Positions 726 to 37,888 of a DNA stretch of 37,888 nucleotides are shown piece after piece. Numbering within the stretch: the first letter of the stretch is position 1; the number at the start of each line of letters is the position of its first letter. The stretch is taken from the NCBI GenBank assembly GCA_017435865.1, contig JAFSEF010000036.1, positions 1 to 37,888 on the forward strand, in the 5' to 3' direction. Source of the DNA: Clostridia bacterium. Its GTDB lineage: Bacteria > Bacillota > Clostridia > Oscillospirales > Acutalibacteraceae. A program made the position numbers and the translations under genes. The notes under the pieces are model-generated. The model was not told where the DNA came from, made no database searches, and worked only from the letters and a program-made list of their open reading frames with translations.

Positions 726-1409
726 ATGCAGATACTTGTTATTGAAGATGAGCCTCGTCTTGCGGAGGCTGTTGCACAGATTCTCAGAGAAAAAAAGTAT
801 ATGGTCGATATTGCAAATGACGGCAGAGACGGTTTTGACCTTGCTGTCAGCGGTGTGTATGACTGCATTATTCTGGATGTGATGCTGCCGTTCAAGGACG
901 GCTATCAGGTTGCAAGTGAATTGCGTAAAGAACGCATTGCAACCCCCATTTTGATGCTGACTGCAAAAGATACGGTTGCCGATAAGGTCAAAGGTCTTGA
1001 TTCGGGTGCTGATGACTATATGACAAAACCGTTTGCACCCGATGAGCTGCTGGCCCGTGTGCGTGCAATGACACGCAGACAGGGGGAAGTGGTACTGGAT
1101 GAAATTGTGTTTGAAGATCTGACACTGAATTTGTCGGCTTACAATCTTTCCTGCAATGAAAAAAGTGTACACCTGAATTTCAAAGAGTTTGAAATCATCC
1201 GTATTCTTATGTCCAATCCTGCTGCCGTTGTTACAAAGGAAGATCTGATTGTCAAGGTCTGGGGCTATGATTCCAATGCCGTGGACAACAACGTGGAAGT
1301 GTATATTTCATTTTTGCGTAAAAAACTGGAATTCATCGGTTCCTCTGTTGAAATCACGGCACTTCGCAAAATCGGCTACCGTCTTGAGGTGAAGCAAAGT
1401 GCTCAATAA
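726..1409 (+). CDS. OmpR/PhoB-family response regulator
   Basis: A DNA-binding response regulator of 227 residues. The receiver domain (about 1-115) has the acidic pair E7/D8, phosphoacceptor D51 in IILDVMLP, T79 and K101 in the TKPF motif. The winged-helix domain (about 130-225) has the ...KEDLIVKVWGYD... and VEVYISFLRKKL segments of the OmpR/PhoB class. The ATG at 726 is chosen because GGAAAGGA lies 10 bases upstream and the protein then starts directly with the first receiver strand. An in-frame ATG at 696 would add ten uncharged-looking residues with no ribosome binding site. The end overlaps the sensor kinase by 11 bases, so the two are translated together. The signal sensed is unknown. 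Confidence 0.93.
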   Translation: MQILVIEDEPRLAEAVAQILREKKYMVDIANDGRDGFDLAVSGVYDCIILDVMLPFKDGYQVASELRKERIATPILMLTAKDTVADKVKGLDSGADDYMTKPFAPDELLARVRAMTRRQGEVVLDEIVFEDLTLNLSAYNLSCNEKSVHLNFKEFEIIRILMSNPAAVVTKEDLIVKVWGYDSNAVDNNVEVYISFLRKKLEFIGSSVEITALRKIGYRLEVKQSAQ

Positions 1410-2673
1410 ACTCAGGAACAGGTTTATTTTTATCAATATGCTTCTTGTAAGCGTTATTGCACTTGTTTTGTTTCTTTGCATTTTTGCCATTACCGTAGGA
1501 TCGCAGTATTCTGATCTGAAGAATGCAATGGATGAAATGCTCGAAATAGACATTGATGTTCCTTTGCTTTATCCGTTTATCGGCGACGACGAACACGTCG
1601 GAATCCGGTCAGACAATCGCACAAGGGGAATTTATGTAGTCAGTGTGACGCATTACGGATCGCCCGGTGGCGGATACGTTGTTGAAAAATCCGTGAACAA
1701 TCTGGTTTCCATGGATGAGGATTTACTGACAACAGCCATTACCTGGATTCTTGAAAACGAAAAGGAAGACGGCTGGCTGAATGATGAAGGTCTTTATTTT
1801 CGCACGCAGCAGCATTTCGACGCACTGCACATTGCTTTTGCCGACGCATCGCATATACTCGATTCATTAGCAAGCGGTTTTATAAACATCATAAGTATGT
1901 ATATAATCGTTTTTGTTGTGTTCTATTTCATTTCCAATTTTTTGGCATCAATGGCTTTCAAACCTGCCGAAAAGGCATGGGAACAGCAGCAACACTTTCT
2001 TGCAGATGCATCCCATGAGCTGAAAACACCGCTTACGGTTATTCTTGCAAATAACAATATTCTGCTCTCACAAAAGAACAAAACCATTGACGAGCAGTTG
2101 CAATGGGTGGAAAGTACGCAGACGGAAGCGGAACATATGAAAAAACTTGTGGATGAATTGTTGTTTCTTGCAAAATCGGATGCTGCAAAACATGAAATCC
2201 CCAAAGAACCTGTTGATCTCAGCGAACTTGCATGGAGCAATATGCTGCAGTTTGAACCTGTTGCGTTTGAACGCGGTGTGCAGTTCGACGGCGAAATACA
2301 GAATGATCTTGTTACGATCGGCGATCGCACGCAGCTGAACCAGCTGATCCATATTTTGTTGGATAATGCCATCAAATATGCAGGCAACAACGGACAGGTT
2401 GATTGGAAGTTGGAAAAATATACAACAGGGAAGACTAAATTGCAAAATTATGCACGCTTGAGTGTGCACAACACCGGCAATCCGATTCCGCAGGAAGATC
2501 TGCCTCATATTTATGAACGTTTTTACCGTTCTGACCGTGCACGCAGTCCCGGCAGCGGATACGGACTCGGACTTGCAATCGCAAAGTCCATTTGTGAGGT
2601 GCACGGTGCTGATATTCTTGTTGAAAGCAGTGCCGAAAACGGAACGACATTTACAGTGAAATTCAAGCTCTAA
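1399..2673 (+). CDS. Sensor histidine kinase
   Basis: A membrane histidine kinase of 424 residues, partner of the response regulator it overlaps. TM1 spans about residues 9-33 and TM2 about 160-182, bracketing an extracytoplasmic sensor of ~125 residues that I do not recognise. The dimerisation/phosphoacceptor helix has SHELKTPLT with H206. The ATPase part has the N box with N323, the F box near FYRSD, and the G2 box GYGLGLAIAK beginning at G387. All catalytic boxes are present. The start is a GTG with GAGGTGAAG upstream, inside the end of the regulator gene. No terminator is visible before the argG promoter, so some read-through into argG is possible. Confidence 0.93.
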   Translation: MLNKLRNRFIFINMLLVSVIALVLFLCIFAITVGSQYSDLKNAMDEMLEIDIDVPLLYPFIGDDEHVGIRSDNRTRGIYVVSVTHYGSPGGGYVVEKSVNNLVSMDEDLLTTAITWILENEKEDGWLNDEGLYFRTQQHFDALHIAFADASHILDSLASGFINIISMYIIVFVVFYFISNFLASMAFKPAEKAWEQQQHFLADASHELKTPLTVILANNNILLSQKNKTIDEQLQWVESTQTEAEHMKKLVDELLFLAKSDAAKHEIPKEPVDLSELAWSNMLQFEPVAFERGVQFDGEIQNDLVTIGDRTQLNQLIHILLDNAIKYAGNNGQVDWKLEKYTTGKTKLQNYARLSVHNTGNPIPQEDLPHIYERFYRSDRARSPGSGYGLGLAIAKSICEVHGADILVESSAENGTTFTVKFKL

Positions 2674-2705
2674 AAAAATAAATTGTATTTCACTGTATAT
2701 TGGTG

Positions 2706-2733
2706 TTGACAAATACAGAAAAGTATGTATAAT
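2706..2733 (+). promoter_or_regulatory. argG promoter
   Basis: A consensus TTGACA at 2706-2711 and a consensus TATAAT at 2728-2733 are 16 bases apart. Transcription would start near 2740, giving a ~30-base leader before the argG start. The -10 box is embedded in a palindrome that could be an arginine repressor site. Confidence 0.75.
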
Positions 2734-2738
2734 TATAC
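2727..2738. promoter_or_regulatory. Candidate ArgR/AhrC operator
   Basis: GTATAATTATAC is a perfect 12-base palindrome covering the argG -10 box. Arginine repressor boxes in Gram-positive bacteria have similar AT-rich half sites (TGNATAATTATNCA-like). The position would allow direct repression. Because any TATAAT followed by TATAC gives part of this symmetry, the call is tentative. Confidence 0.35.
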
Positions 2739-2770
2739 TGAAATATGAAAACCTAAGGAGATAATCTGCA

Positions 2771-4000
2771 ATGGCAAAAGAAATCAAAAAAATCGTTCTT
2801 GCATATTCAGGTGGTCTTGACACCTCCATCATCATCCCGTGGCTGAAGGAAAACTATCCCGGATGCTCCATCATCGCTGTTTCCGGTGACGTCGGTCAGG
2901 GTACAGAACTCGACGGTCTTGAAGAAAAAGCCAAGAAGACCGGCGCCGATAAGCTGTATGTTCTTGATCTTAAGAAAGAATTTGTTGAAGATTACGTATT
3001 CCCGACCCTCAAGGCAGGCGCTGTTTACGAAGGCGACTATCTGCTCGGTACTTCCTTCGCTCGTCCCGTCATCGCAAAGGGCATTGCTGAAATCGCAATG
3101 AAGGAAGGTGCAGATGCAATCTGCCACGGCTGCACAGGTAAGGGTAATGACCAGGTTCGTTTTGAACTGACCATCAAGGCTTTCTGCCCCGATATGGCCA
3201 TCATCGCTCCCTGGCGTGTATGGGATATCAAGTCCCGTGACGAAGAAATCGACTATGCTGAGGCTCACAATGTTCCGCTGAAGATCAGCCGTGAAACCAA
3301 CTACTCCAAAGATAAGAACATCTGGCATCTTTCCCACGAAGGTCTTGACCTTGAAGATCCTGCAAACGAACCGCAGTACAACAAGGAAGGCTTCCTTGAA
3401 ATGGGCGTTTCTCCCGAGCAGGCTCCCGATGTTCCCACCTATGTCACCATTTCTTTTGAAAAGGGTGTTCCCGTTGCAATCGACGGCAAAAAGATGGGCG
3501 GCGTTGAAATCGTTGAAACCCTCAATAAGCTCGGCGGCGACAACGGCATCGGTCTTGCAGACCTTGTCGAAAACCGTCTTGTCGGTATGAAGAGCCGCGG
3601 CGTTTATGAAACTCCCGGCGGCACCATCCTTTACAGAGCTCATCAGGTTCTTGAAACCATCACCCTTGACCGTGACACCCAGCACTACAAAGAGATCATT
3701 GCAAACCGTTTTGCAGAACTCGTTTACTTCGGTCAGTGGTTCACTCCGCTTCGCGAAGCGCTTTCCGCTTTTGTTGACAAGACCCAGGAAACCGTTACGG
3801 GTGACGTCAAGCTCAAGCTCTACAAGGGCAACATCATCAACGCAGGTGTTACCTCTCCCTACACCCTGTACGATCCCGAAGTTGCTACCTTCGATGCTGA
3901 CGAAGTTTACAACCAGGCTGATTCCGCAGGCTTCATCAATCTGTTCGGACTTCCCATTTCCGTCCGTGCAAAGCTCGAAGCAAAGCGTAACAACAAATAA
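2771..4000 (+). CDS. argG: Argininosuccinate synthase
   Basis: Joins citrulline and aspartate with ATP to give argininosuccinate, the penultimate step of arginine synthesis in the cytoplasm. The 409-residue protein matches the usual ~400. It opens with the N-type ATP pyrophosphatase loop AYSGGLDTS (residues 11-19), followed by the GQ.EL-type segment. The characteristic [15 protein letters not shown] motif and [12 protein letters not shown] near residue 280 are present. The start has AAGGAG ten bases upstream. The codons are rich in C-ending synonyms, consistent with good expression. argH follows after a 66-base gap that contains a strong hairpin terminator, so the level of argH may be set by read-through. 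Confidence 0.98.
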
Positions 4001-7836: not shown

Positions 7837-7868
7837 GAAAAAAGAAAGAAAACAAGAAGGTGTTTTGT

Positions 7869-8987
7869 GTGACCAACCGCGAACGTGCCATGAACATTCT
7901 GCATTACAAAGATGCAGACCGTATGCCTGCCGTGCACTTTGGCTATTGGGGTGAATTGCTCACCGAATGGGCAGAACAGGGCAAAATTCCTGCCCACCTT
8001 GCCGAACACAATTATGACGGCAATGAAAAAGACCGTGAACTTGACAAACTGATCGGTTGGGATTTTAACTGGTCATGTACCGCAGGGGCACACATGGGAC
8101 TCAAACCCGGTTTTGAACACAAGGAAATCGAAGTGCTTCCCGACGGCAGCCGCCGTGTGCAAAACGGGGATGGTCTCATTGAACGCATCAAGCCTGGTGC
8201 AACCTCCATTCCGTCCGAAGATGATTATCTGCTCAAGGACCGCGAAGCATTTGAAACATTGTACCGTCCGAAAATGCAGTTCAGTCCTGACCGTGTGAAT
8301 GTTGAATATTTCAAAACTTTCAACGAAACGCGGGATGTGAGCCGTCCCATCGGACTGAATCTCGGCAGTGTGCTTGGCAGCATCCGTAATATGACCAGTG
8401 TTGTGGGCATGAGTTACCTGCTGTATGACGAAGACGAAGATCTGTTTGCCGATATTGTTGATACCTTTGCCGAAATGCAATACAAATGCGTTGAAACGAT
8501 CCTTGAAACGGGTGCAAAATTTGATTTTGCCCATTACTGGGAGGATATCTGCTTCAAAAACGGTCCCTTGCTGTCGCCCGGAGTTTTCGATGAACTGTGT
8601 GCAAAGCATTATAAAAAGAGAAACGATTTGTGTCACAAATACGGCATTGATGTCATTTCCCTTGACTGCGACGGTGTGACAGAAAAGCTGCTGCCGACGT
8701 GGTTCGAAAACGGAGTCAACACCATGTTTCCCATTGAAATCGGTGTGTGGGGCGATCAGTTTGAGCCTGCCCGTCAGAAATACGGCAAAGGAATGCTCGG
8801 TGTCGGCGGTATGGACAAAACGGCACTGCGTAAAGACAAAGCTGCTGTCGATAAAGAAATTGAACGGCTGAAAAGACTTGCATCTATGGGCGGTTTTATT
8901 CCGTGTCCCGATCACCGTCTGATGCCCGGCACAAAGTTTGAGCTTGTGCAATATTATGCGGACGAAATTAAAAAAATCAAGATCTGA
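7869..8987 (+). CDS. UroD/MtaA-superfamily methyltransferase (corrinoid-linked)
   Basis: A 372-residue protein of the uroporphyrinogen decarboxylase superfamily in the branch of corrinoid methyltransferases rather than haem enzymes. It opens with MTNRERAMNILHYKDADRMP, the usual UroD-like start. It has HYWEDICFKNGPLLSP near residue 218 and a GVGGMDKTALRK segment near 316. The GTG at 7869 has AAGAAGG eight bases upstream. The next gene encodes a corrinoid protein, so the likely job is methyl transfer between a methylated substrate (for example a methyl ether) and the cobamide. The substrate cannot be read from the sequence. It is the first gene of the operon. Confidence 0.82.
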   Translation: MTNRERAMNILHYKDADRMPAVHFGYWGELLTEWAEQGKIPAHLAEHNYDGNEKDRELDKLIGWDFNWSCTAGAHMGLKPGFEHKEIEVLPDGSRRVQNGDGLIERIKPGATSIPSEDDYLLKDREAFETLYRPKMQFSPDRVNVEYFKTFNETRDVSRPIGLNLGSVLGSIRNMTSVVGMSYLLYDEDEDLFADIVDTFAEMQYKCVETILETGAKFDFAHYWEDICFKNGPLLSPGVFDELCAKHYKKRNDLCHKYGIDVISLDCDGVTEKLLPTWFENGVNTMFPIEIGVWGDQFEPARQKYGKGMLGVGGMDKTALRKDKAAVDKEIERLKRLASMGGFIPCPDHRLMPGTKFELVQYYADEIKKIKI

Positions 8988-9001
8988 CAGGAGAGAAAAA
9001 T

Positions 9002-9634
9002 ATGAGTATTCTGATTGAAATTTCCGAAAATGTACAGAACGGAAAAATGAAAGCCGTCAAGGAGCTTGTGAATACGGCCCTCGAACAGGGCATTTCCGCT
9101 AACGAAATCCTCAACACCGGTCTGTCCGCCGGCATGACGCTCATCGGTGAAAGGTTCAAAACGGGCGACGTGTATGTTCCCGAAGTGTTGGTTGCCGCCC
9201 GTGCCATGAACGCAGGTGTGCAGATCTTAAAACCGCTGCTGACCGAAGAAGGTGCTGCAGCAAAAGGCAAGGTCTGCATCGGTACGGTGCAGGGGGATAT
9301 GCATGATATCGGCAAGAATCTTGTCAAAATGATGATGGAAGGAAAAGGTCTCGAAGTCGTTGATCTCGGCACAGACGTTGCCCCCGAAACCTTTGTGAAG
9401 ACGGCAATCGAACAGAATTGTCAGGTCATCTGCTGTTCGGCACTGTTGACAACCACCAGGGAAGTGATGGCAGAAGTTGTCAAAGAAGCCGAAAAGCAGG
9501 GCGTTCGCGATACAATCAGAATCATGGTCGGCGGTGCACCGTTGAGCGATGAATACTGCAAACAGATCGGTGCGGACTGCTACTGTGCCGATGCCGCATC
9601 TGCTGCAGATGCAGCTGTGGACCTGTGCAAATAA
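9002..9634 (+). CDS. Corrinoid (B12-binding) methyl-carrier protein
   Basis: A 210-residue cognate corrinoid protein of the MtaC/MtbC/MttC type. The N-terminal four-helix cap (about 1-85) has the GMTLIGERFKTGDVYVPEVL segment. The Rossmann B12 domain (about 90-210) has DMHDIGKNLV with the lower-ligand histidine H101 (DxHxxG type), then a CSALLTTT strand and VGGAPLSDEY near the end. It carries the methyl group on cobalt between the UroD-like methyltransferases encoded on either side. It starts 14 bases after the first methyltransferase, with AGGAGAG upstream. It is the only corrinoid protein in the window. Confidence 0.93.
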   Translation: MSILIEISENVQNGKMKAVKELVNTALEQGISANEILNTGLSAGMTLIGERFKTGDVYVPEVLVAARAMNAGVQILKPLLTEEGAAAKGKVCIGTVQGDMHDIGKNLVKMMMEGKGLEVVDLGTDVAPETFVKTAIEQNCQVICCSALLTTTREVMAEVVKEAEKQGVRDTIRIMVGGAPLSDEYCKQIGADCYCADAASAADAAVDLCK

Positions 9635-9635
9635 G

Positions 9636-10163
9636 ATGGATATTAAAAAATATCTGACATCTCCCGATATTTTTGAAACAGCTGAATTGCTTACTTCTGC
9701 GATTCCTTTTTCGGAAGCGGTTGTGCAGGCTTGCCGCGAGAATCGCTGCGGTCAGTACGGCACCTGCTGGACTTGTCCGCCGGGTGTCGGTACGCTTGAA
9801 AGCTTAAAGAACAAGGCTCTGTCTTTTGAAAAAGCCGTCCTGTTTACCTGTAAATATGATTTGGAAGACTGTTTCGATTTTGAAGGGATGCAGGATGCTG
9901 CAAAAAAATCAAGAGAGCTGCTGTTTTCAATAGCCGACAAACTTCGTGCAGACGGTGTGCGTTTTCAGGCAATGGGTTGCGGAAGTTGTGACCTGTGCGA
10001 CAAATGCACCTATCCCGATGCACCCTGCCGTTTTCCCGAACGTGCACTCATTTCTATGGAGGCTTGCGGCATCAATGTCATTGAACTTGCCAAAAATGTC
10101 GGGGTTCGCTACAACAACGGTTCTGAAACAGTGACTTATTTCAGTATCATTCTCTATGATTGA
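9636..10163 (+). CDS. DUF2284 cysteine-rich metal-binding protein
   Basis: A 175-residue cytoplasmic protein with two cysteine clusters: CGQYGTCWTCPPG near residue 32 and GCGSCDLCDKC followed by PDAPC near 110-130. This is the pattern of the DUF2284 family, which often accompanies corrinoid methyltransferase genes and probably holds a metal or Fe-S centre. The ATG at 9636 starts one base after the stop of the corrinoid protein gene, so it is probably translated by coupling; no good ribosome binding site is seen. A role in reduction or handling of the corrinoid protein is an inference from position. Confidence 0.82.
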   Translation: MDIKKYLTSPDIFETAELLTSAIPFSEAVVQACRENRCGQYGTCWTCPPGVGTLESLKNKALSFEKAVLFTCKYDLEDCFDFEGMQDAAKKSRELLFSIADKLRADGVRFQAMGCGSCDLCDKCTYPDAPCRFPERALISMEACGINVIELAKNVGVRYNNGSETVTYFSIILYD

Positions 10164-10173
10164 GGAAAATGAA

Positions 10174-11163
10174 ATGAAACCAACAGTAAAAAGAATTCTT
10201 GAGAATAAATCAAAAACGATTCCGATTCTGTCTTTCCCATCCGTGCAGTTGCTCGGTATCAGCGTAAAAGAGCTGATCGGTGATGCACAAAAACAGGTGC
10301 AAGGAATGCAGGCGATTTTGCAGCGTTGTCCTATGGGTGCAAGCCTGAATATGATGGACTTGTCGGTGGAAGCAGAAGCCTTCGGTGCAACAATCCGCAC
10401 ATCCGACGATGAAGTGCCGGTTGTCATACAGGGCATAATAACGGATATTGAACAGGCTGCGGATGTTGTTGTGCCGTCACTCGAAAAGGGAAGATGTTCT
10501 TTGTATATTGATGCGGTACGCAGTGCCAAACAGGTGATTTGCGATGTTCCCGTGTTTTGCGGTTGTATCGGCCCGTATTCGCTTGCAAGCCGTTTGTTTG
10601 ATATGACGGAGCTGATGTATGCCTGCTTTGACGACGAAGAAAATACGGAATTGCTGCTCGAAAAAACAACGCAATTCATTATCACCTACATTGAAGCCAT
10701 GAAAGCAGCAGGTGCCGACGGGGTTATACTGGCAGAGCCGGTTGCAGGAATGCTGTCGCCCGACCTTGCTGCCCGTTTTTCGACTCCTTTTGTTGAAAAG
10801 ATTTTCAATGCCGTCAATGACGACGATTTTGTAACGGTCTATCACAACTGCGGCAATGCGGTCGGAGCCATGACACAACAGCTTTCGGCATTGTCTGCCG
10901 ATATTTTCCATTTCGGCAATGCTGTCGAATTGCAGAATATGATTCCTGCATTTGCGGAAGAAAAAATTGTGATGGGCAATGTGGATCCCGTTTTGTTTAA
11001 AAACGGCACACCGCAGGATATTGAAAGGGAAGTCGAACGTGTTTTCAATGCCTGTAAACAATATAATAACTTCATGCTGTCAACAGGATGTGACATTCCC
11101 GCCAATGCAAAGTGGGAAAACTTGGATGCCTATTTTCGTAAAGTGAATGAATTGTATGCATAA
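10174..11163 (+). CDS. MtaA/MtbA-like methylcobamide methyltransferase
   Basis: A 329-residue UroD-fold protein closer to MtaA/MtbA, the enzymes that move a methyl group from a corrinoid protein to a thiol acceptor. The zinc ligands expected for that class are present: H224-x-C226 in YHNCGN and C306 in STGCDIP. The MDLSVEAEAFGA block near residue 67 also matches. The ATG at 10174 has GAGGA seven bases upstream and the gene overlaps no neighbour, while its end overlaps the RACE gene. In Clostridia the acceptor is unlikely to be coenzyme M; homocysteine or tetrahydrofolate are possible, but the sequence does not decide. Confidence 0.82.
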   Translation: MKPTVKRILENKSKTIPILSFPSVQLLGISVKELIGDAQKQVQGMQAILQRCPMGASLNMMDLSVEAEAFGATIRTSDDEVPVVIQGIITDIEQAADVVVPSLEKGRCSLYIDAVRSAKQVICDVPVFCGCIGPYSLASRLFDMTELMYACFDDEENTELLLEKTTQFIITYIEAMKAAGADGVILAEPVAGMLSPDLAARFSTPFVEKIFNAVNDDDFVTVYHNCGNAVGAMTQQLSALSADIFHFGNAVELQNMIPAFAEEKIVMGNVDPVLFKNGTPQDIEREVERVFNACKQYNNFMLSTGCDIPANAKWENLDAYFRKVNELYA

Positions 11164-12556
11164 TGTCAGAATTGACAACAGAATATATACAGCTTCTGAC
11201 GGTGAAACGCTGTCGGAACTGTTTTTGCGTGTCGGATTGACGATCGCCCATCCGTGTGCAGGCAGAGGAATCTGCAAAAAATGCACGGTGAAAGTCAACG
11301 GACAACAGGTGCTTTCATGTCAGTACCGTATCCATTCGGACATCGAAGTCATTCTTCCCGCACAGGGTGAAATTGAATCCGTTGCGGGCGGTGATACGGC
11401 ACAGATGCAGACGGAAAATGTCTGTTTTGCACTGGATATCGGCACAACCACCTTGGCACTTGCCCTTGTTTCGTTGGATGAAAAGAAGATGATAAAAGTC
11501 ATCACCCGAACCAATCCGCAGGTCGCATTCGGTGCTGATGTGATTTCGCGTATTGACTATTGCCGCAAAAACACGGCACAACCGCTTTGCAGTGCACTCA
11601 TAGCTGCTGTCAACGAAATGGTGTCTGCATTTGCCCTTGATTCTCCGAAAGATCTTTATGTGGCAGGCAATACCACGATGCTGCATTTGTTTTTGAATGT
11701 CGATTGTTCGTCGATCGGTGTTGCACCCTACACACCTGCATTTCTTGAAAGCAAGACGGCAACAGGAGAACAACTGGGATTGCAGGGGATCGGTACTGTT
11801 GTTTCTTTGCCGAATATTGCTGCCTTTGTCGGTTCGGATCTTGTGGCAGGACTCAATTGCGTTGCAATGCCTGCGGACGAAAAATACAGCCTGCTTGTTG
11901 ACCTCGGCACCAATGCGGAAGTGCTTCTGTTTTCGACTCGTGATATCCTTTGCACTGCTGCCGCGGCAGGCCCGTGTTTTGAAGGTGCCAATATTTCGCA
12001 AGGGATGCCTGCGACCGACGGTGCCATTACTTCTTTTTCGTTTGACGGCGGTGTGCCGAAGATAAAAACCGTCGGCAATGTACCTGCAAAGGGCATTTGC
12101 GGAACCGGACTCATTGACATCATTGCCGCATTGCTAAAATATGAAATTATTGACGAGTCGGGTTACATGGAAGACGAAAGCTTTGAAGTAGCCCCCGGTG
12201 TCTTTTTAGAACAGGCCGATGTGCGGCAGTTTCAGCTTGCAAAGTCGGCGGTGTATTCGGCGATCACTGCACTGTTAAAACAAAAAAACATCCGTCCCGC
12301 GGATGTCCAAAAGCTTTATATTTCAGGTGGCTTTTCGGCAAAAATTAATATCGACAATGCCGTATTCTGTGGTCTTTTGCCCAAGGAGCTTGCTGACCGC
12401 TGTGTTGTGCTTAACAACAGCAGCCTTCTGGGCACGGTGCGGTTTGCCTGCGAGCAGAATGATCTTGAAAAAATCATACAAAAAGCAACCTACATCGACC
12501 TTGCAACCGACCCGACATTTTCGCAAAGCTTTATTGAAAATATGATGTTTACATAA
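11147..12556 (+). CDS. RACE-type corrinoid reactivation ATPase (DUF4445)
   Basis: Reactivator of corrinoid enzymes, 469 residues. The N-terminal 2Fe-2S ferredoxin domain has C37, C43, C46 and C58. An ASKHA-type ATPase domain begins at about residue 91 with FALDIGTTTLALAL, continues with VDLGTNAEVLLF and AAAGPCFEGANIS, and ends with a YISGGFSAKI block near 405. These proteins reduce inactive Co(II) to Co(I) at the expense of ATP. It overlaps the preceding methyltransferase by 17 bases (8 if the ATG at 11156 is used; both lack a strong ribosome binding site). Its presence shows that the operon runs methyl-transfer cycles that need redox repair. Confidence 0.92.
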   Translation: MNCMHNVRIDNRIYTASDGETLSELFLRVGLTIAHPCAGRGICKKCTVKVNGQQVLSCQYRIHSDIEVILPAQGEIESVAGGDTAQMQTENVCFALDIGTTTLALALVSLDEKKMIKVITRTNPQVAFGADVISRIDYCRKNTAQPLCSALIAAVNEMVSAFALDSPKDLYVAGNTTMLHLFLNVDCSSIGVAPYTPAFLESKTATGEQLGLQGIGTVVSLPNIAAFVGSDLVAGLNCVAMPADEKYSLLVDLGTNAEVLLFSTRDILCTAAAAGPCFEGANISQGMPATDGAITSFSFDGGVPKIKTVGNVPAKGICGTGLIDIIAALLKYEIIDESGYMEDESFEVAPGVFLEQADVRQFQLAKSAVYSAITALLKQKNIRPADVQKLYISGGFSAKINIDNAVFCGLLPKELADRCVVLNNSSLLGTVRFACEQNDLEKIIQKATYIDLATDPTFSQSFIENMMFT

Positions 12557-29206: not shown

Positions 29207-31372
29207 TTACAGCTGTGCAAATGTTCTTTCAATCACATTGTCCTGCAGTTCGCTGCTCAGGTTCACAAAATAATCACTGTAGCCGCCGACGCGGACAATC
29301 AGATTGCGGTGATTTTCGGGATTTCTTTTTGCATCAAGAAGATCTTCGGGGGAGACGACAGTGACAGTATATTGCTGTCCGCCGCCTGCGAAAAATGCCT
29401 TTGCAAGTGCAATAAAGGAAGCTTTGCCTTTTTCGGTCAAAAACATCTTCTTTTCAAATTTGTTCTGGAATACGAAACCGCTGCAGGCATCGATATGGTT
29501 GTATCTGAGAACGGATTTGATTTGTGCGGTCGGTCCTTTTTGGTCACGTCCGGGAGTTGCGGCAATGCTGTCAGCCAGAAGCGGTTCCGCCTTTTTCTTG
29601 CCGTTTGGAAGTGCCGCTGTTTGCATTCCGTATCTTGCCGCACGTTCAAAGGTACTGCAGCCGCCTGTAAAAACACCGCCTCGGTAGGTGTTGTTGCGTT
29701 TGAGAACGGTGAAAAAACGATTCAGTATCCGTGCGGTTATGGCATCAACTTCTTCGATGTCATTGCCGAATTTTTCGCAATTCCTGAAATCATGATGCAG
29801 CTGTTCATAACCCTCAAAATCTGCTTTCAGTGCATCGATGAGTTCGGTCATGGTGTATTTCTTTTCATCGTAAACCAGCTTCTTGACGGCATAAAGGCTG
29901 TCACCTGTATCGGCAATGCCCTCGGCTAAAATCTGTCCGTGATTGTAAAGCGGACCGCCGTTTCTGTAGTCGCGTCCTTTTTCAAGACAACCTTCAATCA
30001 GACATGAGCGAAGCGGATGCGGTTCAAATACACCGCGCAGATGTTGATAGTCATTGGCACTGCTGCAGGCATTGTAGGTTACGTAGTCAAGCTGATCGAT
30101 AAATGCACGTTCAAATCTTTCGTACGTACCGAATGTTGCGGGATCACCTGTTTCGACAGATATTTTTTCTCCTGTCATGCCGTCAATGCCATTATACAGT
30201 GCAAACTCCAGGCATTTGGTAAAAAGAACTTCGCCGTCTTCAAGTCCCATGTGGCTTTTGCCGAGGATGTCAATCTGATTGCATCCGTTCATGCAATAAT
30301 CATGGCTGTCAGCAGGCGGAATGCCGATTTTTTCAAGTGCGGCACAAACCACATCGTCGTTGTACAACGAAGGCAGTCCCGTTCCGACAGCGAGTGTTTC
30401 GGCAATCGCATTCCAGAGCATATCGGGTGTGTTGCTGTGAACCCGACAGGTTAGGTTTGGAGTGTTGTACCCTTTTTTTCTCACCATCGTAAGAATATCA
30501 TATGTGAGATCGTTGCTTTCATCGTTTCCGTTTTCATCACTGCCCGCAATGCACAGGTTCCATGAACGATGATCGCGGAAATAATCCCACAGTCTGTCAA
30601 GCAGGTCGGCAATTTCTTCCTTGTGCTCTGTTTTTGCATAAGCAGGGTACATATACTGGTCAAATCTGCCGGGGGAATCGTTTCCGTCAAGGGCAAAAAT
30701 GAGCATGAAAGAACACATCGCCGACGTAAAATCAAAGGCAGGTTTTTTCGGCACTGTTTCAAATGCCTTTGCCATACGCAGTAAAAGTGCCTTGTCTTTC
30801 GTATTCTGACAAGTTTCTGCCTTTTCAAGGGCAAGCTTGCCATATCTTTCACCGATAATGTCAATGGCATCCAGGGCATAAGAGCAGGCACGGTAGAACC
30901 AGTCTTCGTCCGGGAAGTGATCGCGGTTTGCTGCAATAATGGTTCGAATGTGGTCTGTGCCGAAGTTGATGATTCTGCCGTAATCGGGGTTTGCGTGTCC
31001 GCCCCAACGGCCGCCCCATTCTGCACCGGAACGATCGAGTGTTTCCGAGGGTTCGGAAAAAAGCCTTCTGGCTTTGCCTCTGAATATGTTGATTTCACGC
31101 AAATAACCGAGCAGCGTTTCCTTGTGTTCGGGGAATGCTTCTGCAAGGTGCAGAATATTTTCATCATTGAACTGCAGTCCCTCGGATTTTGTATAGCAAG
31201 AGCTGCCGTATTTTGTTTGGAATGTCGTAGCCGGAAGCAACTGCGGTGAAAATATGATATCAATGTTTTTTGCGGCATGAAGCAGTGCAAGTCCGACTCT
31301 TTCGCCGTGTTCCAATGTTTCATCGAGAAAATAACCGTAAAGGAAAGGATCAATCTGTGCCAAAGTCATCAT
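29207..31372 (-). CDS. Glycyl radical enzyme of unknown substrate
   Basis: A 721-residue glycyl radical enzyme (pyruvate formate-lyase superfamily). The C-terminal radical loop is RVGGYSDYFVNLS with the radical glycine at G697. The active-site thiyl loop is YCMNGCNQ with C364 (a second cysteine at C360). The dehydratase and C-N lyase members normally have Gly-Cys-x-Glu here, so the glutamate base is replaced by glutamine. The protein also starts near WGGHANPDYG without the ~100-residue N-terminal region of many relatives. The substrate is therefore not assigned. The ATG at 31372 has GTGAGG seven bases upstream. Its activase gene lies 13 bases before it. Confidence 0.88.
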   Translation of the reverse strand: MMTLAQIDPFLYGYFLDETLEHGERVGLALLHAAKNIDIIFSPQLLPATTFQTKYGSSCYTKSEGLQFNDENILHLAEAFPEHKETLLGYLREINIFRGKARRLFSEPSETLDRSGAEWGGRWGGHANPDYGRIINFGTDHIRTIIAANRDHFPDEDWFYRACSYALDAIDIIGERYGKLALEKAETCQNTKDKALLLRMAKAFETVPKKPAFDFTSAMCSFMLIFALDGNDSPGRFDQYMYPAYAKTEHKEEIADLLDRLWDYFRDHRSWNLCIAGSDENGNDESNDLTYDILTMVRKKGYNTPNLTCRVHSNTPDMLWNAIAETLAVGTGLPSLYNDDVVCAALEKIGIPPADSHDYCMNGCNQIDILGKSHMGLEDGEVLFTKCLEFALYNGIDGMTGEKISVETGDPATFGTYERFERAFIDQLDYVTYNACSSANDYQHLRGVFEPHPLRSCLIEGCLEKGRDYRNGGPLYNHGQILAEGIADTGDSLYAVKKLVYDEKKYTMTELIDALKADFEGYEQLHHDFRNCEKFGNDIEEVDAITARILNRFFTVLKRNNTYRGGVFTGGCSTFERAARYGMQTAALPNGKKKAEPLLADSIAATPGRDQKGPTAQIKSVLRYNHIDACSGFVFQNKFEKKMFLTEKGKASFIALAKAFFAGGGQQYTVTVVSPEDLLDAKRNPENHRNLIVRVGGYSDYFVNLSSELQDNVIERTFAQL

Positions 31373-31385
31373 AATCAAACCTCAC

Positions 31386-32279
31386 TTATTTTGATACTCT
31401 CACATCAATGCCGTGCATTGCAAACTGTGCACACCAATGTGATATTTCATTGTCGCTTGCATTGTCATGTTTATAGGCGGTGTTTGTGCCTGTTTTTTCG
31501 GCTTTTGCGGTGCCGAGGGAGTGATAGGGCATAATCTCTGCATACCTGTACCGCCCTTTGTTTTTATGCAGAAAAGCTGCAAGATCCGCAATAGCCTCAT
31601 TGCTGTCATTGCAGCCGGGAATCATCGGCAGCCTGATAATAATGTCAGCACCTGTGTTCATAAGAAAAAGAAGATTGGACAGAATGTGAGCATTGTCAGC
31701 ACCTGTCAGCTGTCGGTGCCGTACAGGATCAAGGCATTTTATGTCGAATAAAAATGTTGTGCCGAGGTCTGCCGCTTTTTTGTAGAACTCACGTGCACCG
31801 ATGCCGCAGGTTTCAACAGCAACGGAAATGCCTGCCTCTTTTGAAAGCCTGAGCAGTTCGTACGCAAAATCAGCCTGCAGCGACGGCTCACCGCCTGTAA
31901 GGGTTATTCCGCCGCCTGACGTATCGTAAAACATTTTGTCCTGCAACACTTCTTGCATAACTTCGGCTGCAGTCATTTCTTTGCCCGTTATTGTGTTGGC
32001 ATCGTGCAGACAGACTTTCACACATTTTTCGCACATTTTGCACTTTTCGCGGTCAAGAAACAATGTATCGTTGCGGATTGTACGTGCTTCGCATACGCTG
32101 AGACATCTGCCGCATGATGAGCATTTTTGTGTATCAAAAGAAAGAATCGGTTTTTTATCAAAACTTTCGGGATTATGGCACCAGATGCATCGCAACGGAC
32201 AGCCTTTCAGAAAAACGCAGGTGCGGATTCCGTCTCCGTCATGTATGCAGAATTTTTGTATGTTGAACACGATTCCCAT
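31386..32279 (-). CDS. Glycyl radical enzyme activase
   Basis: A 297-residue radical SAM activase that abstracts hydrogen from the glycine of the partner enzyme. The SAM cluster is C27-x3-C31-x2-C34 in CPLRCIWC. An inserted two-cluster ferredoxin region has C53, C56, C59, C63 and C80, C83, C86, C90. This insert is typical of activases for dehydratase-type enzymes and absent from PFL activase. GGGITLTGGEP follows near residue 122. The ATG at 32279 has GGTGAG about ten bases upstream and gives a normal MGIVFNIQKF start. It is the first gene of the two-gene unit. Confidence 0.93.
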   Translation of the reverse strand: MGIVFNIQKFCIHDGDGIRTCVFLKGCPLRCIWCHNPESFDKKPILSFDTQKCSSCGRCLSVCEARTIRNDTLFLDREKCKMCEKCVKVCLHDANTITGKEMTAAEVMQEVLQDKMFYDTSGGGITLTGGEPSLQADFAYELLRLSKEAGISVAVETCGIGAREFYKKAADLGTTFLFDIKCLDPVRHRQLTGADNAHILSNLLFLMNTGADIIIRLPMIPGCNDSNEAIADLAAFLHKNKGRYRYAEIMPYHSLGTAKAEKTGTNTAYKHDNASDNEISHWCAQFAMHGIDVRVSK

Positions 32280-32307
32280 TTTTATGCTCACCAACTTTCC
32301 AAAATCG

Positions 32308-32756: not shown

Positions 32757-33044
32757 TTATTGGTTTTCTTTTATACTATTTACTGTTAATCTGACAATAT
32801 TGTCTTCAATAATACCAAAGCCGTCAGAAGTTTCGACAGATAAAATCAGTTTATCACCCGTATATGCAGTAACTACACCTGCACTGAGAGAAAAAATAGT
32901 ATTTGCATGGCCTTTTTTTATTCCGTAGGAACCTGAAAACTTTCCCTTAATATCATCGGCAATATTCAGCCGTATACTGTCACATTCCGGAATTTCAATT
33001 TGTCGGTCAACTGTAAAAATCGTAAGCGAAAGATTATCTTTCAT
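32757..33044 (-). CDS. atpC: F-type ATP synthase epsilon subunit, short form
   Basis: The last gene of the ATP synthase operon, 95 residues. It matches the N-terminal beta-sandwich of epsilon: SLTIFTVDR at the start, and SYGIKKGHANTIFSLSAGVV aligning with the GxxGILPxHA motif. The C-terminal two-helix domain present in most bacterial epsilon (130-140 residues) is missing. That domain inhibits ATP hydrolysis and can clamp the head, so this enzyme may lack that brake. The ATG at 33044 has CAGGTG six bases upstream; a GTG at 33053 overlapping the atpD stop is possible. The call depends on synteny as well as sequence. Confidence 0.78.
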   Translation of the reverse strand: MKDNLSLTIFTVDRQIEIPECDSIRLNIADDIKGKFSGSYGIKKGHANTIFSLSAGVVTAYTGDKLILSVETSDGFGIIEDNIVRLTVNSIKENQ

Positions 33045-33049
33045 ACTGG

Positions 33050-34453
<1,404 letters not shown>

Positions 34454-35290
34454 TTATTTCTCTCCCTTCATTGAGTTTTCAGCCGAAATTTCAATAACAT
34501 CGGCTGTAACTTGACTTTGACGTATGCGGTTTATCTGCGTTTCAATCTGTGTGCTGTATTCACATGCAGTATCATAAGCAGAGCGCATAGTTGTAAGAGT
34601 TGCAGCCTGTGCGCCTAAAGCTGTTTCAAGTATTTTTTTATATATAATTGAAGTAAATGTTTTTTCTGCGGTATTATTTATGACTGTATCTTTGTCGGGA
34701 ACAAATAAGAAATTATCACCTTCATCTTTCCCTTCATCAATCGTAAACAGATCGCATAAAACCGGCTCTTGCTTAATCATATTTATATATTCGGGATATA
34801 CCATTCTGACTGATGAAACGCTACCTTCCTTCATAAGAGAGCGTATTTCCTTAAACAACTCGCTCACTTCTGAATAAGAGGGGACATCATTGAATATATA
34901 AGCCTTTTTATAGGGGATTCCGTTAGACTGAAAGTGTTCTCTGACTTTCTTGCCGCAAGTAAAGATAACAGGTGTTTTTTTCTCTTTTTCAAGTATTCCA
35001 TCAAAAAAACTGAGAAGTTCTGCATTAAAAGCACCGCACATACCCGTGTTTGCTGCCATAACTATATAGCATATAGGGGCATCTGCATTATTAAGACAAA
35101 ATACGCTATTGAACTCTTTTCGATAAGTCTCATACAGACGACTGCACTGTTTTTCGTATTTTTCATAACTGCTGTAAAGACCGCTTAAACGGGAATATTT
35201 GACAGTAGAGGCAGTTTTCATCGCCAGAGTAGTTTTACGGGTTGAACGGATAACCTGAAGTTTCTTTTTTAAGTTTTGTACTGTTGCCAT
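34454..35290 (-). CDS. atpG: F-type ATP synthase gamma subunit
   Basis: The central stalk subunit, 278 residues (usual ~285). N-terminal coiled coil KKLQVIRSTRKTTLAMKTAS and C-terminal RSAYDTACEYSTQIETQINRIRQSQVT helices are typical and pack in the head. A Rossmann-like middle domain has YIVMAANTGMCGAFN. The start at 35290 follows the stop of the fused gene by two bases, with GAGAGG upstream. It lies between the fusion and atpD in the usual order. Confidence 0.95.
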   Translation of the reverse strand: MATVQNLKKKLQVIRSTRKTTLAMKTASTVKYSRLSGLYSSYEKYEKQCSRLYETYRKEFNSVFCLNNADAPICYIVMAANTGMCGAFNAELLSFFDGILEKEKKTPVIFTCGKKVREHFQSNGIPYKKAYIFNDVPSYSEVSELFKEIRSLMKEGSVSSVRMVYPEYINMIKQEPVLCDLFTIDEGKDEGDNFLFVPDKDTVINNTAEKTFTSIIYKKILETALGAQAATLTTMRSAYDTACEYSTQIETQINRIRQSQVTADVIEISAENSMKGEK

Positions 35291-35292
35291 AA

Positions 35293-37503
35293 TCAAAACC
35301 TCTCAGCAAATTCACCGATAGCTTCACTGAGTTCATTTTTAAGCTCATTGTCAAATTTTTCTGCAGTTTTCACCTTATCGGTAAGTTCTGCTTTTTCTTC
35401 GGTAAAATATTTATAGAGTTTCTTTTCAAAATCTTCCATATTTTCCGGAATGATTTTGTCAGCATATCCGGTGCTTACGGCAAAGATAAGAATTGCCTGC
35501 AAATAATCGGGAACGGTGTTGTATCTGTTCTGTTTTAGAGCCTCTGTGAGAAGTCTGCCGGAAGCAAGAGTGGCTTTTGTAGCATCGTCAATATCAGAAC
35601 CGAACTGCATAAATTCAGCAAGTTCTCTGTACTGGGCAAGACGGGTGCGCAGAGAAGATGATATCTTTTTCATAACGGGATTCTGTGCCGCACCGCCTAC
35701 ACGAGAAACAGAAAGTCCTACGTTGACAGCAGGTCTCTGACCTTCATTGAACAGTTCAGAGTCAAGAAAAATCTGTCCGTCAGTAATTGAAATAACATTT
35801 GTGGGAATATATGCTGATATATCACCTGCAAGTGTTTCGATAATCGGAAGTGCAGTTATTGAACCGCCTCCGAGATCTTCAGAAAGATGAGCTGCTCTTT
35901 CAAGAAGTCTTGAATGGAGATAAAAAATATCACCGGGATAAGCTTCACGCCCTGACGGACGGTGAAGGAGAAGCGACAGTTCACGGTAAGCTACGGCATG
36001 TTTTGAAAGGTCATCATAAATAATCAGAACGTCCTTGCCGCTGTACATAAAATGTTCAGCTATAGCAGTAGCTGAGAAAGGCGCAATATACTGAAGAGCT
36101 GCTGAAGAAGACGCAGGCTCAGCAACGATGATTGTATAATCAAGCGCTCCGTGAGATTTAAGCTTTTCTTTGATCTCTGCAACAAGTGTTTCTTTCTGAC
36201 CTATTGCAACATATATACAGATTGTATCCTTACCCTTCTGATTGATGATTGTATCAACAGCAATAGCTGTTTTGCCTGTTTGTCGGTCACCGATAATAAG
36301 TTCTCTCTGTCCTTTACCAATCGGAACAAGAGCATCAATAGCCTTGATACCAGTATGGAGAGGTTTATTAACCGGAGCACGGTCAAGAATACTTGGTGCC
36401 TTGAATTCTATAGGTCTTACTTCATCATAAGGGAGATAACCTTCCGCATCAATAGAATTACCGAGAGCATCCACCACTCTGCCAAGAAGGGCATTACCTA
36501 CGGGAACAGATGCGATTCTGCCGACTCTTCTTACCGGAGTACCGCTTTCGATATGAGCAAAATCGCCGAAGATAACACAACCGATGCGATTCTGTTGAAT
36601 ATCGAGCACCATACCTCTTTCACCGCATTCAAATTCAACGACCTCGCCGTACATAATATCGGCAAGACCATCCATCCAGCATATACCGTCTGAAACTGTA
36701 ATAACTCTGCCAAGCTGAAATACGTGAATATGAGGTCTGTAGGACTCAGCCTTTTCTGAAAACTCCTGAATAAGATGACCTACGGTATCTGTTGTCAGGA
36801 TAGGCTCGTGGTTAAGATTCTGTGAGAATTGATAAAGCTCCTCGGCAACTGTTCCGTCATATACCGTATCGCCGATTCTCAGTTTGAGTCCGCCAATAAG
36901 AGACGGGTCCTCAAGTACCCATAATGAGGTTTTACCGCCTACCTCGTCAAGCATCGAGGTTGTAACCTCATCAACCTTTTTAACAATAGCCTTATCAAGC
37001 GGATAAGCCGACGTAAGGGTAACATAGAGAACATCGTGATGCTTTAAGTATGCCATATCACCGGGAGTCAGTTTAATCTGCGGAAGAATTGCATCTATTA
37101 TATTGGTATCAAGATTTCTTATTTCTTTTTGATATTTTTCATAAGAGAAAAGTTTTACGACATTTTCTCTCATAATTGAGAAAAGTTCTTTACGTGCATC
37201 CTCAATCATTTCACGGTGAATTTCGCGATGAATATGACCGCTAAATTCTTCTATCTGAGCAATTTTTTCATCAAAAACAGCTCTTGCAATTATAGTATCT
37301 TCTGCACTGTTTTCGTCGTATTCTTCATGCTGATACTCCTCGAAAACAGGCATAGCTATTTTTTCTGTAGCTTCCGCTTCGTCAAGTTCACGGTTGATTC
37401 TCTCAAAGCGGGAGTTAAAAATAGACCTGATCTTTTTCCTTCCGAACAAAAACAGTATAATTGCAAGAATTATAAAGTTTATAATCACATATTGTATTTC
37501 CAT
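35293..37503 (-). CDS. atpA: Fused b'/delta/alpha subunit of F-type ATP synthase
   Basis: A single uninterrupted frame of 736 residues. Residues ~4-20 form a membrane helix (IINFIILAIILFLFG), ~22-130 a charged helical stalk like subunit b, ~150-230 a delta-like domain (YVTLTSAYPLDKAIVKKV, then DPSLIGGLKLRIGDTVYDGTV, the classic delta C-terminal motif), and ~238-736 a full-length alpha subunit. Alpha has GRVITVSDGI, P-loop GDRQTGKT (405-412), LIIYDDLSKHAVAYR and the arginine-finger region SVSRVGG. In mycobacteria atpH is a b-delta fusion followed by a separate atpA; here the two are joined. A separate b subunit gene lies 4 bases upstream, as the second stalk helix. No stop, frameshift or internal ribosome binding site with start was seen at the delta/alpha junction. 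Confidence 0.93.
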   Translation of the reverse strand: MEIQYVIINFIILAIILFLFGRKKIRSIFNSRFERINRELDEAEATEKIAMPVFEEYQHEEYDENSAEDTIIARAVFDEKIAQIEEFSGHIHREIHREMIEDARKELFSIMRENVVKLFSYEKYQKEIRNLDTNIIDAILPQIKLTPGDMAYLKHHDVLYVTLTSAYPLDKAIVKKVDEVTTSMLDEVGGKTSLWVLEDPSLIGGLKLRIGDTVYDGTVAEELYQFSQNLNHEPILTTDTVGHLIQEFSEKAESYRPHIHVFQLGRVITVSDGICWMDGLADIMYGEVVEFECGERGMVLDIQQNRIGCVIFGDFAHIESGTPVRRVGRIASVPVGNALLGRVVDALGNSIDAEGYLPYDEVRPIEFKAPSILDRAPVNKPLHTGIKAIDALVPIGKGQRELIIGDRQTGKTAIAVDTIINQKGKDTICIYVAIGQKETLVAEIKEKLKSHGALDYTIIVAEPASSSAALQYIAPFSATAIAEHFMYSGKDVLIIYDDLSKHAVAYRELSLLLHRPSGREAYPGDIFYLHSRLLERAAHLSEDLGGGSITALPIIETLAGDISAYIPTNVISITDGQIFLDSELFNEGQRPAVNVGLSVSRVGGAAQNPVMKKISSSLRTRLAQYRELAEFMQFGSDIDDATKATLASGRLLTEALKQNRYNTVPDYLQAILIFAVSTGYADKIIPENMEDFEKKLYKYFTEEKAELTDKVKTAEKFDNELKNELSEAIGEFAERF

Positions 37504-37507
37504 AACG

Positions 37508-37888
37508 TCATACCCTGTGCATAATTATATTTTTGACAAATATTGCTGCTGCAGTTTCCATTTCAGGTGCTACAGATTTGACAATATCTTCATATTCATC
37601 AATAATGCTCTCTCTGTATGCCTTTATTTCATCAAGACTTTTTCTTTGAGCAGCTTCAATTTCTTTTTTTCCTTCAGACTGTATTTTTTGTGCTTGTTCT
37701 TTGGCTTCTTTTTCATGGACCTCAATATCAAACTCTCTCTGCTTCTGAATGTATTCTTCATTTTCGGCAGTAATCCTTTCGATTTCAGCCTTCTTTTCCC
37801 TTGCACCTTCAATTTTTTCTTTTCTGTTGTCAAGCATTCTTAGCACAGGTTTAAAAATAAGATTTTTCAATATCAGCATAAGAAGCAA
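37508..37888 (-). CDS. atpF: F-type ATP synthase b subunit (partial, start off window)
   Basis: The visible 126 residues are the end of the membrane helix (LMLILKNLIFKPVLRMLDNR) and a long charged coiled coil with the RKEKIEGAREKKAEIE pattern of subunit b. The start lies beyond the right edge. The next gene encodes a second b-like helix fused to delta and alpha, so the stalk is probably a b/b' heterodimer. Genes for subunits a and c are expected just upstream of the right edge but are not in view. Confidence 0.88.
   Translation of the reverse strand: MLLMLILKNLIFKPVLRMLDNRKEKIEGAREKKAEIERITAENEEYIQKQREFDIEVHEKEAKEQAQKIQSEGKKEIEAAQRKSLDEIKAYRESIIDEYEDIVKSVAPEMETAAAIFVKNIIMHRV

Follow-up and report, generated by a model that had tools for sequence, protein, structure and literature searches.

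The F1 head contains three alpha subunits, and one peripheral stalk together with one a subunit is taken as the rule for F-type ATP synthases. V-type ATPases have one a subunit as well, and in the b-delta fusions of Mycobacterium and Gordonia the delta part is full length. According to PMC5709465, these delta/b fusions have another b-type gene beside them, and transcription units devoid of delta have been described in Clostridia. The closest precedent is an engineered one: in the FoF1 of Bacillus PS3, the N-terminal domain of delta was removed and the remainder was fused to alpha, giving up to three stalks (PMC12229609, 2025). That paper reports a and b subunits at 2.2 and 1.8 times the wildtype amount, respectively, and an H+/ATP ratio of 5.8 against 3.0, in a construct that also has no epsilon C-terminal domain. 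It argues that the delta N-terminal domain, lying on the axis of the head, limits the stalks to one, ascribes the rarity of triple-stalk particles to detachment during preparation, and calls for stably bound multi-stalk enzymes. It further names natural delta-alpha fusions in Acidaminococcus fermentans and in two UniProt entries. The principle of the delta-alpha fusion is already published, natural cases included.

Here, we analysed a stretch of 37,888 nucleotides from a Clostridia bacterium (the window, meaning the whole stretch at its full length) in which one gene on the minus strand, at 35293–37503, encodes b, the C-terminal domain of delta and alpha in a single chain. We put the probability that this gene belongs to a natural, covalently locked multi-stalk F-ATP synthase, whose stalk count we infer from sequence and comparison, at roughly two in three. 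In the chain, as in the engineered deltaDeltaN-alpha of PS3 (PDB 9jc1), alpha carries the delta C-terminal domain at its N-terminus, and the delta N-terminal domain is absent; the short epsilon of the fusion operons has its counterpart in the PS3 epsilon without C-terminal domain, and a multi-stalk outcome was seen in PS3 (PMC12229609). However, the PS3 construct is man-made and its b is separate (b2), whereas here b makes up residues 1–143 of the chain and only a b'-type gene stands apart. Natural delta(C-terminal)-alpha proteins, such as that of A. fermentans, have the same junction and no delta N-terminal domain, but no b in the chain. In the mycobacterial and Gordonia b-delta proteins (PDB 7jg5 chain d), as in ours, b is joined to delta and a further b-type gene adjoins; in contrast, the window protein matches only positions 96–172 of the OSCP profile and thus has no full-length delta, and alpha is a separate chain there (7jg5 chains A and d), while the fusion operons (L007 and others) hold no separate alpha. 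N-ATPase operons and fusion operons both have no separate delta gene. Yet the fused alpha scores 599.7 bits on TIGR03324, below the cut-off of 750.5, N-ATPases have no fusion to alpha, and their gene order, beta-epsilon-...-a-c-b-alpha-gamma in PMC5709465, differs from the a-c-b'-[b-delta-alpha]-gamma-beta-epsilon of the fusion operon. V-type ATPases would be alike in working if three stalks are present, but their stalk subunits are others (E/G) and the fusion enzyme is no member of that type.

A preliminary description of this DNA had stated that no enzyme with this layout was known. The statement stands for the addition of b: in the literature searched (preprints, most subscription journals and supplements lie outside it), we found no account of a b-delta-alpha chain, of how widely it occurs in this order or of its role as the only alpha. 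It falls for delta(C-terminal)-alpha, which has been engineered, solved by cryo-EM (9jc1) and named in natural cases in PMC12229609. The delta-less clostridial units described in PMC5709465 may include such fusions.

Architecture of the fused protein

The gene is a single open frame of 736 amino acids, with many stops on the plus strand over the same positions, and its extent agrees with the Pfam and NCBIfam matches and with the lengths of its homologs. The b-type stalk part covers residues ~1–143 (37075–37503, minus strand). Pfam ATP-synt_B matches residues 4–107 (E 4e-7), residues 4–143 align weakly with residues 12–160 of Bacillus PS3 b (E 0.008), and helices are predicted at 2–47, 64–119 and 122–142, in keeping with a membrane helix followed by stalk helices. 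The C-terminal domain of delta follows at residues ~150–231 (36811–37056, minus strand): the Pfam OSCP profile is found at residues 152–230, directly before alpha, with profile positions 96–172 of 172 only (E 5e-13). The remainder, residues ~237–736 (35293–36795, minus strand), is a complete alpha with an N-terminal helix at 240–253. Here, Pfam detects ATP-synt_ab_N (265–328), ATP-synt_ab (385–600, 1e-81) and ATP-synt_ab_C (607–732), and residues 249–736 reach 711 bits on TIGR00962, the atpA model, whose cut-off is 484. The stretches GDRQTGKT and SVSRVGG, which we take to be the P-loop and the arginine finger, are invariant or nearly so among 18 aligned fusions. This part is an F-type ATP synthase alpha. 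The single chain of stalk, reduced delta and full alpha that the preliminary description had read from the letters is therefore confirmed by these profiles and motifs. So is the loss of the delta N-terminal bundle, given that the OSCP match starts at profile position 95–100 in all 19 fused frames tested and the domain is missing in each.

The helices above come from a structure model built on 66 sequences (mean pLDDT 83.7), which supersedes an earlier one from 18 sequences (pLDDT 62, with a poor alpha part). The delta region (residues 141–230) reaches block pLDDT values of 77–92, and residues 221–260 are predicted with lower confidence (57–77). By sequence, PDB 9jc1 (580 amino acids, labelled as a chain that combines delta with alpha) ranks second among the solved structures matching the fusion protein; in a structural alignment of the model, 9jc1 was absent among the 50 matches listed, which barely cover residues 1–243.

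Gene content of the fusion operons

A separate b'-type stalk gene lies upstream of the fusion at 37508–37888 (minus strand) and is truncated by the end of the contig (C14), which stops at 37888, inside the operon. Its best NCBIfam model is B' PRK07353 (E 8e-8, below the cut-off). Operon position and best NCBIfam models, all scores being below the family cut-offs, suggest that the fused stalk part looks like b and the separate gene like b', the reverse of the first assignment, in which the fused part had been called b'. A b'-type gene directly precedes the fusion in all of 11 loci (L007–L016 and L127); in the ten where this gene is uncut, its product has 138–168 amino acids when counted from the first start codon.

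Downstream, on the same strand, the gamma gene occupies 34454–35290 (Pfam ATP-synt, E 1.5e-48). Its ATG start at 35290 was picked by eye, guided by the L007 protein, the listed frame opening with a TTG at 35296; at 143 bits on TIGR01146, below the cut-off of 194, it is a divergent gamma. Beta follows at 33050–34450 (466 amino acids, TIGR01039 768 bits against a cut-off of 463), and then, after beta as in relatives, a short epsilon-like subunit of 98 amino acids at 32757–33053 that holds the beta-sandwich part only (Pfam ATP-synt_DE_N, E 3.8e-5, below the gathering score). The full gene set is seen in L007: a small gene at the position of I with no family match, then a-c-b'-[b-delta-alpha]-gamma-beta-epsilon. 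The a and c genes are present in 10 of the 11 loci (the contig of L008 begins inside b', and a is truncated in L016), with one a gene per fusion operon. Epsilon has 81–104 amino acids in the ten loci where it is uncut (10/10), and 136–171 in delta-alpha relatives without b in the chain (L017, L048, L128–L132 and L134).

The operon (32757–37888) has a GC content of 0.398, compared with 0.453 elsewhere in the window, and its tetranucleotide composition is shifted as well. Together with the scattered distribution described below, this composition could, as a weak hint, reflect horizontal transfer. Downstream of the ATP synthase genes, at 29207–32294 (minus strand), Pfam identifies a pyruvate formate-lyase-like glycyl radical enzyme, accompanied by an activating-enzyme-like protein (31386–32294, minus strand, by eye). 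The window also holds a corrinoid methyltransferase cluster at 7860–12556 (plus strand), with two URO-D-like methyltransferases, a corrinoid protein and a RACo-type activator, 7860–8987 and 11147–12556 being assigned by Pfam and the rest by eye.

Distribution, phylogeny and selection

A search for this domain order, as had been proposed, was productive. Of 120 homologs listed for the fusion protein, 119 have 736 amino acids and one has 731; near-identical proteins of the former length lie on many contigs, of up to 423 kb. When residues 1–236 (b-delta) alone served as query, 1068 out of 2834 candidates matched at E <= 1e-5; among the 120 matches listed, 118 have 736 amino acids, one 731 and one 564. 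By genome sampling, the fusion was found in 9 of 296 other genomes of the order and in 2 of 100 genomes of the family (the host and G082, the long frames of eight others having been examined), and no further intact three-part fusion appeared at E <= 1e-180 among 293 genomes sampled from the class. One further long match in the class sample, from G607, was discarded, as a stop separates a b gene from a delta-alpha gene there. In all, there are 21 carriers with distinct sequences (the host; G184, G159, G129, G128, G351, G208, G299, G316 and G186; G082; and G001–G010), many of them from animal guts and in part metagenome assemblies, with a completeness figure for 11 of them.

In a tree of alpha sequences, the 21 b-delta-alpha proteins form one clade (SH-aLRT 99) whose sister is L017 (97). 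The tree comes from a quick search with SH-aLRT as the only support and comprises 101 rows, 11 Prochlorococcus rows having been omitted; rows without the P-loop pattern (e.g. L129) and the loci of the Negativicutes class found later are outside it. The fusion sequence of locus L015 (CADACE010000007.1), whose contig bears the label Chloroflexi, is nested in the Clostridia clade. In 18 of 24 cases dS allowed an estimate (the other 6 had no usable dS), and each of these dN/dS ratios, for b, delta, linker or alpha, is below 0.4: selection keeps every part of the fusion. The window contig does end inside the operon, which might suggest that separate genes were merged by a sequencing error in assembly or binning, but the many independent 736-residue relatives, the 21 genomes with distinct sequences, their single clade and the purifying selection leave practically no room for such an artefact. 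The b-delta-alpha fusion is real and no assembly error.

Other alpha and delta genes, internal starts and cleavage

The preliminary description had rightly raised a stoichiometry puzzle, three alphas and one delta per head, and had offered three solutions: each head has three stalk domains, the protein is cut after translation, or there is a separate alpha gene. The first is the best supported. No other F-type alpha exceeds the atpA cut-off in 17 of the 21 carriers, and the fused alpha is the sole one in eight of the nine carriers that are at least 90% complete. The second atpA that it had proposed to look for does exist in the host (G000), as in three other carriers (G186, G003 and G010), so that a separate alpha gene applies to these four. 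In the host, whose genome is 84.8% complete, it is an ordinary gene within an F-type operon of its own on contig C117 (L006), where c, b, delta, alpha, gamma, beta and epsilon are seen and the contig ends before any a gene. The full-length delta of this second operon sets the host apart from the fusions of the PMC12229609 type; a separate delta over the cut-off is otherwise found only in G186, and in none of 17 of the 19 carriers tested (G003 and G010 were outside the test). G316 has one weak delta match below the cut-off, in a frame of 498 amino acids.

A look for an internal start at about codon 230–240 had also been proposed. In the window gene, the last 45 codons ahead of the start of alpha and the 39 codons past it contain no in-frame ATG, GTG or TTG; the first start codon past it is Met 277, without a Shine-Dalgarno-like stretch. 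Five of the 21 fusion genes (the window, L009, L016, L127 and L140) are free of start codons for 20 codons on both sides, and an internal start is rejected for these five only. The remaining 16 have some in-frame ATG, GTG or TTG within 20 codons, and in 7 of the 21 at least one start codon within 45 codons lies behind a Shine-Dalgarno-like stretch, at varying positions.

These seven genes, and the second alpha of four carriers, including the ordinary atpA of the host, are what would feed mixed heads, with one fused alpha and two plain ones derived from a second operon or from internal starts. Set against this are the 17 carriers with the fused alpha alone, among them eight of the nine near-complete ones, and the genes without a nearby start codon, such as that of the window and L140, whose genome (G129) is 98% complete and has no other alpha. 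Besides, the ordinary alpha of the host is 54% identical to the fused one and belongs to its own operon with a sodium-ring-like c. Mixed heads are accordingly improbable.

The other way to a conventional enzyme is a protease that cuts the whole chain, leaving one stalk in place and discarding two of the three stalk pieces. The region where such a cut would fall, the linker and alpha N-terminus (~228–262), is little conserved (47–65% identity in six pairs, compared with 80–90% in alpha and 45–81% in the b part) and has the lower model confidence given above. However, the delta N-terminal domain needed for a one-stalk cap is missing from all 19 fused frames tested and 17 of 19 genomes supply no separate delta, the length of 736 amino acids is constant in 119 of the 120 listed homologs, and the loss of two thirds of the arms would be wasteful, all of which makes this outcome hardly likely.

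As side observations, G088, of the same genus and 97% complete, has no F-type alpha at E <= 1e-120 (the genome of the window has two), and the same holds for 66 of 100 sampled members of the family.

Number of stalks and a subunits

We propose, as the preferred reading, that the gene product would be the non-catalytic alpha of a proton-type F-ATP synthase that brings its own peripheral stalk arm. From the N-terminus, the b membrane anchor and stalk helices would lead to the delta C-terminal domain, which would grip the top of alpha, and then to alpha itself. With three alphas per head and the fused alpha as the only one in the genome, each head would have three b-delta arms, unless the chain is cut or translation starts internally; as the fused alpha is the sole alpha found in most carriers, the enzyme either works in this form or is cut. 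The delta N-terminal domain, which lies on the head axis of ordinary enzymes and permits one stalk only, is absent, and its loss would make room for three arms. Each arm would pair with a separate b' subunit, and, with stalk, clamp and head in one chain, could not detach.

Some findings speak against several stalks. Near-full-length fusions in relatives (L128–L131 and L155) have retained the N-terminal domain of delta, whose loss is therefore no necessary result of fusion. Arms might be cleaved from alpha after translation, and plain alpha exists in the host and three other carriers. In addition, cryo-EM of the engineered enzyme showed few particles with three stalks (PMC12229609).

By analogy with the engineered enzyme, each arm of the multi-stalk synthase would probably recruit an a subunit of its own, with the consequence of more ions per turn and hence ATP synthesis at very low ion-motive force, or more ions pumped per ATP. 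That three covalently locked stalks and three a subunits work on one c-ring in these bacteria is a tentative proposal, with the odds somewhat against it. If true, each turn would pass three ions for every c subunit, and the H+/ATP ratio would be the same as the number of c subunits in the ring. Assuming about 14 of them, as the nearest solved rings suggest, ATP synthesis could proceed at roughly 35–40 mV (by arithmetic for ~50 kJ/mol), which would make this an extremely low-gear rotary synthase beyond the ratios quoted as known in PMC12229609.

Three stalks could also share a single a subunit in a V-type-like manner, giving a sturdier enzyme with a normal ion ratio. V-ATPases join both sectors through three stalks (PMC6131620) and each fusion operon has a single a gene; but every remaining stalk of the engineered PS3 enzyme bore an a subunit, according to PMC12229609, and each fused arm comes with its own b membrane helix, so that we consider this arrangement rather unlikely. 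A natural enzyme of the multi-stalk kind would make both the question of several stalks and the scaling of H+/ATP with the number of a subunits directly testable.

Ion type and the second enzyme of the host

The c gene of the window operon lies off the contig, and the ring comparison rests on the L007 relative. The c subunit of L007 is closest to 2wie, which we take to be a cyanobacterial ring (71.7 bits), followed by chloroplast rings (61–69) and the sodium ring 1yce (49.2), and its a subunit is closest to chloroplast a. On the other hand, the c subunit of the ordinary host operon (C117/L006) is closest to 4bem and 3zk1, presumably sodium-type rings, and to 1yce. Of the two enzymes of the host, the fused one would thus probably be of the proton type and the ordinary one of the sodium type. 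An Rnf gene in the host indicates that a primary pump able to drive synthesis exists. A specific link to Rnf was rejected: of 11 fusion carriers, 10 have RnfC (the exception being G082, 80% complete), but so do 94 of the 97 genomes sampled from the order as a whole.

Related delta-alpha architectures

Two-part delta-alpha fusions recur in the order of the host. Those without b that hold only the C-terminal domain of delta have 568–617 amino acids in Clostridia; with OSCP starts at 99–105, they include L017, L033, L045, L048 (whose score falls slightly short of the gathering cut-off), L132, L134, L149, L151, L163 and L167. In others, delta is near full length, with OSCP spans of 2–172 (L129), 26–171 (L130), 36–172 (L131), 25–171 (L155) and 26–172 (L128). 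Within the Negativicutes, the class of G395, at least 32 of 200 genomes have two-part candidates, defined as open frames of at least 600 amino acids without stops and with a match from residue 163 or earlier. L167, L170 and L171 of this class read as 616 amino acids each, L167 being confirmed by Pfam, and no intact three-part form was present among the matches listed from these 200 genomes.

The alpha tree splits fused from unfused sequences with a support of 26, so a single origin of all delta-alpha fusions is neither shown nor excluded. L134, without the delta N-terminal domain, groups among the full-length delta-alpha fusions (support 98), a placement suggesting that loss of this domain probably followed fusion on more than one occasion. 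L017 (3994–7193), the sister of the three-part clade, has a separate b', a 319-residue protein with b followed by two delta-C-like repeats, and then delta-C-alpha. The repeats are 32% identical to each other over 65 residues, and Pfam detects only the b part of this protein; in total, three delta-C-like units and no delta N-terminal domain are seen. This layout looks like an intermediate. Finally, in L132, whose operon also holds delta-C-alpha, gamma and beta share one open frame of 796 amino acids (912–3302, minus strand). The beta part begins with an ATG that is preceded by a GGGG stretch, so this frame probably yields two proteins.
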